Shown: piece after piece, positions 3,726-54,130 of the stretch
Layout of the letters: each line of letters opens with the position of its first letter
Position numbering within the stretch: the stretch's first letter is position 1
DNA from: Rhizomicrobium sp.
GTDB lineage: Bacteria > Pseudomonadota > Alphaproteobacteria > Micropepsales > Micropepsaceae
Reading direction: 5' to 3'
Assembly (NCBI GenBank): GCA_037200385.1
Contig: JBBCGL010000001.1
Coordinates: 1,674,001-1,738,000, forward strand
DNA: 64,000 nt
Program-made: the position numbers and the translations under genes
The notes under the pieces: generated by a model
What the model was told of the DNA's origin: nothing
The model's input: only the letters and a program-made list of their open reading frames with translations
The model's database searches: none

Positions 3726-3843
3726 TCTGGGATGACATCGTGGCGACGTCCGGAACCGATGTCAACGGGAAATGACTTGGCGCGCTGGCGGACCTGCCGC
3801 GGCTGATCGCGGCGGCGCCGGTGGGGAAGGATGTCAAATAGCT

Positions 3844-3975
3844 GTCATCCCCGGCCGAGCGATGCGACAGCATCGCGAGGGGAAGGGGACCCAGGCGCCA
3901 AACACCGTGACGGTATCTCCCACCTGGGTCCCCTTCCCCTCGCACTCGCTTCGCTCGCGCTCGGCCGGGGATGAC
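3844..3975. repeat. Inverted pair of GTCATCCCCGGC...GGGGACCCAGG repeats (family A), without a gene
   Basis: The left arm 3844-3895 and right arm 3923-3975 are inverted copies of the unit found around the GIY-YIG gene at 9071-9622. Each starts GTCATCCCCGGC, has a variable GAGCG-rich centre and ends GGGGAAGGGGACCCAGG. Only 27 bases lie between the arms. The whole occupies the 328-base gap 3726-4053, where no gene is supported. Confidence 0.85.
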
Positions 3976-4053
3976 AACGGTGCCTTGAACGAAGGCGGTC
4001 GAACGCCTTCTTGCTACCGCCCGGTGAGTACCGCCTCCCAAATGCGCCGCGGT

Positions 4054-9044: not shown

Positions 9045-9070
9045 GGCGGCTGTCATCCCGCAACGCCCTT

Positions 9071-9167
9071 GTCATCCCCGGCTGAGCGACGCGCCGCCAG
9101 CGCAGACTCACACGTGTCATCCCCGGCTGAGCGACGCGTCAGCGTCGCGAAGGGAAGGGGACCCAGG
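9071..9167 (+). repeat. Two direct copies of repeat family A, left flank of the GIY-YIG unit
   Basis: A partial copy (about 9071-9113) and a full 54-base copy (9114-9167) lie in the same orientation. The full copy starts GTGTCATCCCCGGCTGAGCG and ends GGGAAGGGGACCCAGG. It differs at one base from the inverted copy at 9529-9582. Confidence 0.9.
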
Positions 9168-9213
9168 TGGTCGAGCGCTACGAAATGCGGTGGGTTCGCG
9201 CTATTCTCGAAAG

Positions 9214-9579
9214 ATGAAGGAGCATGTCTATTACGTCTACATTCTCGCGAGCCGTCGAAACGGCACGCTCTATGTCGGTGTTTCGAACGACGTCATGCGA
9301 AGGACCTGGGAGCATAAGAACGACCTCATAAAGGGCTTCACGAAGAAGTATGGGGTGCACATTCTGGTCTGGTACGAGGTCCATGAGGATATCAGCGTCG
9401 CGATCGCTCGCGAGAAACGCCTGAAGCGCTGGAATAGAGCGTGGAAGGTGAAACTTATCGAACAGCATAATTCCGGCTGGAACGATATATACGATCGCTT
9501 GATGGGTGAGATCGCGCTGCCGGATATGCCTGGGTCCCCTTCCCTTCGCGACGCTGGCGCGTCGCTCAGCCGGGGATGA
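9214..9579 (+). CDS. GIY-YIG nuclease-domain protein (YhbQ/UPF0213-like)
   Basis: A 121-residue protein that is almost entirely a single GIY-YIG domain: YYVYIL and LYVGVSND form the first strands, followed by RRTWEHK, with the conserved arginine, and KGFTKKYG, then a helix rich in basic residues (AREKRLKRWNRAWK). Members are small endonuclease-like proteins with poorly known roles. The last 17 codons, from about 9529, are encoded by the inverted repeat arm, so the true conserved domain probably ends near residue 104. Base composition is lower in GC than its neighbours. Its position inside nested inverted repeats is the most unusual arrangement in the window. Confidence 0.9.
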   Translation: MKEHVYYVYILASRRNGTLYVGVSNDVMRRTWEHKNDLIKGFTKKYGVHILVWYEVHEDISVAIAREKRLKRWNRAWKVKLIEQHNSGWNDIYDRLMGEIALPDMPGSPSLRDAGASLSRG

Positions 9580-9622
9580 CACGTGCGTTGCACTGGCAGC
9601 GCGTCGCTCTGCCGGGGATGAC
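9529..9622 (-). repeat. Two inverted copies of repeat family A, right flank of the GIY-YIG unit
   Basis: The full copy 9529-9582 is the reverse complement of 9114-9167 with one difference. A partial copy 9583-9622 is the inverted partner of 9071-9113. The nuclease stop codon, TGA at 9577-9579, is part of the full copy. Confidence 0.9.
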
Positions 9623-9700
9623 AACCGTCGCCCCCAATCGACTCCCCTCCCGATTTCCGCCATCCTCCCGACGCGGCCTTTTTACGAGGACACACGCGAC

Positions 9701-53998: not shown

Positions 53999-54130
53999 GT
54001 GTCATGGCCCGCGAATGCGGGCCATCCAGGTGATCCCTGCGAAATCCAACCACAATCAACCTGATTTCATAAAACGAATGGCATCCTGCAGAACCCAGCT
54101 GGATGGCCCGCATTCGCGGGCCATGACACC
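53999..54130. repeat. Perfect 32-base inverted repeat pair (family B)
   Basis: The arms 53999-54030 and 54099-54130 are exact reverse complements. Each starts GGTGTCATGGCCCGC, contains a hairpin on GGCCCGC/GCGGGCC, and ends in CATCCAG. A 68-base lower-GC spacer lies between. It is the same family as 1391-1475. The rest of the 53936-54332 gap shows no supported gene. Confidence 0.9.

Follow-up and report, generated by a model that had tools for sequence, protein, structure and literature searches.

We suggest that a stand-alone SLX1-like GIY-YIG nuclease of Rhizomicrobium sp. is the cognate enzyme of the palindromic repeats (REPs) flanking its gene, and that it drives the spread of both the repeat and the gene-bearing unit. 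We assign this explanation as a whole a probability of roughly 0.6. In this explanation, the unit is a REP-nuclease element, i.e. a stand-alone SLX1/UPF0213-like gene centred between two TGTC/CGTC-tagged REPs of its own in head-to-head arrangement, and gene-less pairs of ~130 nt would be the short, non-autonomous form of the same element. The unit lies in a 64,000-nt stretch of DNA (contig JBBCGL010000001.1 of assembly GCA_037200385.1, positions 1,674,001 to 1,738,000; here, the window). A first reading of these letters alone (the sequence-only reading) had proposed a repeat-spreading system similar to RAYT/REPIN systems with a GIY-YIG enzyme, and this proposal is supported by the association of gene and repeat, the sites without the unit and the repeat copy numbers.

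The unit in the window

The GIY-YIG gene is indeed nested in two layers of inverted repeats, as had been claimed. The features, in window positions, are as follows.

9111..9167, + strand: inner left REP arm, with the TGTC tag at 9115-9118, a 5-bp outer stem around a 7-bp hairpin and a CCCAGG tail
9529..9585, - strand: inner right REP arm, an inverted copy with one mismatch
9214..9579, + strand: GIY-YIG nuclease gene, 121 aa (PF01541, E 1.6e-15), with the stop codon and 3' end inside the right arm
9069..9104, + strand: outer left truncated REP copy
9589..9624, - strand: outer right truncated REP copy
3843..3976, no strand: gene-less inverted pair of 134 nt of the window-type (A-type) repeat, from repeat-core matches
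54000..54128, no strand: gene-less inverted pair of the B-type repeat (TGTCATGGCCCG class), as found on either side of L031, the second such nuclease gene of the genome

The inner arms span 57 nt and are 98% complementary, which corresponds to one mismatch; the high identity first noted (53 of 54 bases) is confirmed and its extent corrected. The outer copies form a pair of 36 nt with 92% complementarity, and because they are truncated and lack the GGGGACCCAGG half, the symmetry is near-perfect rather than perfect, as had been claimed. On each side, the repeat cores run in direct repeat (left, 24 nt, 100%; right, 25 nt, 96%). The outer truncated pair (9060-9104 and 9589-9624) is by itself nearly symmetric. 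The ORF is intact, it ends, as first read, with a stop codon inside the right arm, and its deviant base composition is evident in a GC content of 51.5% compared to 66.3% for the whole window. The unit is bordered by phhA on one side and a 117-aa ORF on the other.

A double layer of arms was found in only 2/33 loci with the outward motif described below on both sides (L038, which is the window, and L078). It is an unusual trait and not a general one and, for this reason, was dropped as a part of the system. At the window, the unit was perhaps inserted in or beside an older REP. An Rfam nhaA-I match inside phhA was discarded as sub-threshold (23.5 bits vs a gathering score of 37), and PADLOC gave no match at the window, leaving a known defence system without support there.

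The arm is a high-copy palindromic repeat

The window arm is a TGTC-tagged REP. Its exact 13-mer core, TGTCATCCCCGGC, occurs 179 times in the 5.0-Mb single-contig host genome (G000), and a 22-nt core with up to 3 mismatches has 91 places there (46 on the + and 45 on the - strand), compared to 0 matches for the reversed-pattern control. Of the pairs that these 91 places form within 200 nt, 19 are convergent and none is divergent, with lengths mostly of 119-148 nt. In a typical inverted pair, TGTCATCCCCGGC is followed by an inner hairpin and GGGGACCCAGG, then by a variable centre of ~25-30 nt and the inverse; for one such pair, the DNA fold has an energy of -58.2 kcal/mol (z -11.7). In the gene unit, the gene takes the place of the centre within the same inverted pair. 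In DNA folds of both window arms, TGTC is unpaired; the A-type arm of the window has a 5-bp stem and an inner 7-bp hairpin, and the B-type arm an 8-bp stem with a 4-nt loop. A 360-kb sample of the host genome held only 6, 7 and 3 copies of the B, C and CTTCGA types, respectively, with 0, 0 and 2 in the controls, and thus gave no evidence that the second repeat type is numerous there.

These repeats appear to fit the superfamily of CGTC/TGTC-tagged REPs, which is found mostly in alphaproteobacteria and, in the parts of its description covered here, takes in Neisseria dRS3 and Rickettsia RPE-4/RPE-6 (Di Nocera et al. 2013, PMC3733652). Common features are the CGTC/TGTC tag, which is unpaired and at one end also in both window arms (TGTC), AT at the stem base, a CCA-like tail, a predominance of head-to-head pairs, as in the 19 convergent and 0 divergent pairs here, and the mostly alphaproteobacterial distribution. 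The published stem of 8-9 bp with a 4-5 nt loop agrees with the B-type arm, whereas the A-type arm is longer and contains an internal second hairpin. Moreover, CGTC-tagged REPs were published without an enzyme gene, and in the covered parts of that paper a dedicated transposase is apparently absent, whereas here GIY-YIG genes lie inside matched arms.

The nuclease

The nuclease gene is under purifying selection, with dN/dS of 0.032-0.157 in 15/16 pairs and one pair saturated. Invariant residues include Y9, Y20, G22, R30, H34, E67 and N86, which we take to be in line with the GIY-YIG active site. A structure model (mean pLDDT 94.6, pTM 0.86) gave UPF0213 1zg2 as the best, albeit weak, Foldseek match in the PDB (E 1.2e-3), followed by Slx1 chains; a profile search against the PDB gave 1zg2 and 1ywl, and PHROG and NCBIfam gave weak matches to homing endonucleases. 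The best sequence and fold matches are Slx1-like/UPF0213 proteins, which are likewise stand-alone minimal GIY-YIG domains (PMC1564403, covered portions; PDB 1zg2, 1ywl). The covered portions of that account describe vertical descent and do not mention repeats, whereas two nuclease clades here are repeat-linked and nine other GIY-YIG loci are not.

Gene and repeat are associated across genomes

A homologue search over 147 genomes found homologues in 87. Loci were given an arm score, defined as the best inverted match between both flanks (+1/-1.5). The set of 93 relatives' loci, 91 of them testable, consisted of 30 first-picked loci, 60 further ones among the matches listed, and L031, L034 and L035. 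The score was at least 16 in 60/91 loci (60/90 without L035, a member of the second clade described below) and at least 14 in 72/91, and an outward [CT]GTCAT motif was present on both sides in 71/91. For this set, three controls never reached 16 (phhA flanks 0/23, outer windows 0/84, shuffles 0/182), and nine loci of other GIY-YIG proteins, which overlap with earlier locus sets, were 0/9 at a score of at least 14. As a further control, left and right flanks taken from different loci reached 16 in 27/300 combinations.

The association extends to several phyla. Among 80 named loci, 43 of the 78 testable ones scored at least 16 and 35 less (L214 and L216 were left out because one flank was too short), and 20/30 loci from a phylum-wide search likewise reached 16; without three repeated loci (L167 = L078, L170 = L053, L247 = the window), the counts at 16 are 41/76 and 19/29. 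Outer windows of these two sets gave 0/94. Loci scoring at least 16 are found in, for instance, Methylotenera (L171), Elusimicrobia (L184), Desulfobacteraceae (L185), Thiohalomonas (L210), Caulobacter (L215), Uhrbacteria (L220, L226), Methylomonas (L228), Chloroflexi (L233), Pseudomonas (L238, L245) and Nitrospiraceae (L246), and loci without arms in Thiobacillus (L173, L181), Methylomonas (L206), Planctomycetaceae (L203) and Accumulibacter (L221).

In a plasmid collection, 33 records had a match and 6/9 sampled loci scored at least 16. On plasmid AZO_p3 of Azospirillum lipoferum 4B, sufB and sufC are separated by a REP-flanked GIY-YIG gene (L435; protein WP_014249537.1) whose arms are of the CGTCATCCCCGCGAAGGCGGGGATCCAG sequence; this unit interrupts the suf operon. 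In a Neisseria gonorrhoeae record, the gene is inside a cluster of dRS3-type copies, which counts for less given the abundance of such copies there, and no arms were found around the gene in the Rhizobium tumorigenes and Photobacterium records.

Could dense repeats surround an ordinary gene by coincidence? REPs are abundant in the host and dRS3-type copies are clustered in the Neisseria record; nevertheless, the phhA, outer-window, shuffle and other-GIY-YIG controls rule out chance and generic gene-flank effects, and we consider the probability of coincidence negligible. The gene-repeat association is solid. The sequence-only reading had asked whether the gene always sits between inverted copies and had held that homologues without flanking repeats would count against it. 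It usually does sit between such copies, but not always: 19/91 relatives' loci score below 14, and 10 of those are also without the motif on both sides.

Several further observations concern individual loci. The GC content of the nuclease genes is constantly below that of their surroundings (median 53.1 vs 64.0, 93 loci). A B-flanked match in G069 has an in-frame stop, and G058 has a gene-sized gap, filled with N, between B-type repeats.

Repeat copy number and gene presence

Among 69 same-genus genomes, the number of A repeats was higher with a typed A-class gene (median 17 vs 4, p 5.9e-5) and B repeats were likewise more numerous where a B-class gene had been typed (15 vs 2, p 2.1e-6), with arms typed at sampled loci only, so that some genomes may be mistyped. 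A and B repeats together had a median of 20.5 with the gene and 4.0 without (p 1.6e-4); because the genomes are related and partly incomplete, all of these p values are guides only. The cross comparisons were also positive (A repeats with B-type genes, p 0.002; B repeats with A-type genes, p 0.0043), and the A/B ratio differed between A-only (8) and B-only (12) genomes (p 0.019). Thus, the specificity of copy number is not clean.

The expectation that repeat number follows the gene holds for the medians but not for every genome. G007 has 39 A and 33 B repeats and 0 nuclease matches, G061 and G006 likewise have repeats without a detected gene, and G039 has 94 A copies while its sole nuclease match has C-type arms. 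The sequence-only reading had regarded equal repeat abundance in genomes lacking the gene as evidence against it; G007, without a gene, and G039, without a typed cognate gene, show such abundance in part. Genomes of this kind are in favor of an alternative, in which another host enzyme spreads the REPs, and the GIY-YIG gene, as a passenger or an invader of the homing type, inserts into REP pairs that are already there. The weak PHROG and NCBIfam matches to homing endonucleases, and the truncated outer layer at the window, which could be an older, invaded REP, also agree with this alternative. We consider it unlikely for the reasons given in the following two sections.

Arm sequence follows the protein clade

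The host genome has seven PF01541 loci, and four of its small GIY-YIG genes carry cognate arms of four different sequences. In addition to the window gene, L031 is flanked by perfectly matching 36-bp arms with a sequence of their own, TGTCATGGCCCGC..., whose B pattern has 51 copies in the genome; L034 has a third arm sequence; and L035, which belongs to a different GIY-YIG clade, lies by inspection between CTTCGA/CTGAGG-type palindromes with a score of only 11.0. The other three loci (L033, L036, L037) have no cognate arms. Over the loci compared, arms are alike within a locus and unlike between loci.

On a tree of 83 proteins, which has few columns and unresolved forks and whose alignment can extend into the part of the protein encoded within the right arm, the four arm classes need 11 changes compared to a mean of 43.0 after shuffling (0/200 shuffles as low), and class A alone needs 2 compared to 19.0. 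In 12 genomes, a typed A-class gene occurs alongside a typed B-class gene; host kinship alone is, therefore, insufficient to explain the match between arm and clade. That arm class tracks protein clade argues against a passenger landing in existing pairs, and so does the frequency of matching arms within loci (60/91) compared to across loci (27/300). At five orthologous units in conserved position (L199, L209, L230, L240, L256), the arms differ (e.g. ATTCCGGC vs ATACCGGC) and have changed on both sides.

The second GIY-YIG clade goes with a different repeat. Among loci of L035-like proteins, 20/35 testable ones score at least 16, with 0/34 for outer windows, and the arms are of the CATCCTGAGCTTGTCGAAGGATG kind. 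L375 (G000:C1:1965140-1965400) and L376-L433 place this clade within another palindrome class, of the CATCCTGAG...CTTCGA type.

Dispersed copies and sites without the unit

One unit of ~0.51 kb is present as three near-copies in G310 and two in its congener G196 (~87-91%). The flanks of L279, L280 and L281 are unrelated and agree in no more than a few bases; homology among the three begins at CTTCGTCAT and, for L279 and L281, stops at ATGACGAAG, while the right arm is truncated in L280. L277 and L278 have some common sequence beyond the unit. In L279, conserved residues are altered, and this copy may be decaying. G013 contains two unit copies with 85% identity over 565 nt. No target-site duplication was evident by eye in the five aligned near-copies. 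These dispersed copies bring their own arms, and a free-standing homing endonuclease gene would reuse one conserved target site, whereas the flanks here are unrelated; both points are at odds with a homing-type invader and in favor of the nuclease as the cognate enzyme of its REPs.

Empty sites at related loci, for which the sequence-only reading had called, do exist. In G029, an 86%-identical phhA is followed after 22 nt by an ORF start where the window has the unit, and the neighbouring gdh is conserved as well. Of 29 relatives' loci at the L279 site, none matched the gene part; four relatives have 34-85 nt between the flank matches and seven carry arm-like pieces. No precise junction or base-exact empty site was found at the unit-less sites compared and, case by case, loss rather than gain is possible.

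Units can also keep their place. L199, L209, L230 and L240 (Gallionellaceae/Nitrosomonadales loci) and L256 are orthologously placed and, because position is conserved in this way, the gene is often static. Together with purifying selection, this would be expected if the nuclease had a host function, either trimming or policing REP hairpins or with arms that merely regulate its expression, in a mostly immobile unit. Dispersed near-copies, sites without the unit, hundreds of gene-less copies elsewhere and the constantly low GC of the gene (median 53.1 vs 64.0 in the flanks) make a host function of this kind improbable, and we favor a nuclease that spreads its own repeats.

Relation to known systems

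The element shares with REPIN/RAYT systems (REPtrons; PMC3116915 and PMC3733652, covered portions) the many palindromic inverted pairs and the small enzyme gene between cognate repeats, in that the gene is flanked by a cognate high-copy repeat (179 cores of the A type, 51 copies of the B type). However, RAYT is, in those portions, a Y1 HUH transposase, present in single copy and associated with GTAG repeats, whereas here the enzyme is a GIY-YIG protein, the tag is TGTC/CGTC and several copies of the unit are possible. A RAYT system was rejected for the host genome, where the enzyme is PF01541, the tag TGTC and PF01797 (Y1_Tnp) without a match.

A RAYT or another classical transposase could still act in trans to spread the REPs, with the GIY-YIG association being secondary. 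Y1_Tnp is present in 22/69 relatives, but PF01797 has no match in the complete host genome (G000) or in the REP-rich G013, G028, G029 and G035. Moreover, only 1/12 testable Y1_Tnp loci of relatives has the outward motif on both sides and 4/12 have other inverted repeats (e.g. TTCGGGGTCAGAGT), and the covered parts of PMC3733652 report no CGTC repeats at tyrosine transposase genes. From this survey of Y1_Tnp genes, we regard a transposase in trans as very improbable and retain the GIY-YIG nuclease as the candidate enzyme. Around the Y1_Tnp genes L330, L333, L344 and L350 of relatives, there are inverted repeats of another kind, e.g. AAGTTCGGGGTCAGAGTAAGA, which recall the published ends of TIRYTs.

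With a MITE and its parent transposon, the element shares short gene-less and longer gene-bearing forms with common inverted ends; unlike these, there is no DDE or HUH transposase and no target-site duplication was seen. A literature search, with bioRxiv outside its scope and subscription papers sparse, found no link between GIY-YIG proteins and REPs among the matches listed, and an earlier description elsewhere is possible; the covered portions of PMC1564403, PMC12306157, PMC6006769, PMC5896051 and PMC3116915 report none.

A model for repeat spread by a nuclease

Cognate action by the nuclease best explains these data, and we infer from them both a cutting and a copying step. In this model, the nuclease would recognise the hairpin of its cognate REP, in single-stranded DNA or as a cruciform, and would cut next to the TGTC/CGTC tag, which is unpaired. 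New sites would then receive copies of the REP pair, either alone or together with the gene, through the repair or replication of the host. Because DNA is hydrolysed by GIY-YIG enzymes and no covalent intermediate of the HUH type is formed, the copying step would probably rely on host enzymes. Cutting of a hairpin or cruciform is proposed because Slx1 is, in the source portions covered, a branched-DNA nuclease.

REPs are among the most abundant bacterial repeats, and as of 2013 no enzyme was known for the CGTC superfamily. We speculate, at about even odds, that small GIY-YIG nucleases are the dedicated mobilisers of a large part of bacterial REPs, one clade acting on CGTC-tagged and another on CATCCTGAG/CTTCGA-type repeats. 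The matched pair of gene and repeat in culturable organisms such as Azospirillum lipoferum 4B makes the mechanism of spread directly testable. If the model is true, these units would represent a class of mobile elements that spreads transposase-free, by a hydrolytic, structure-selective nuclease and host repair. REP dispersal would then need no transposase, and the annotation "GIY-YIG nuclease family protein" would gain a function.
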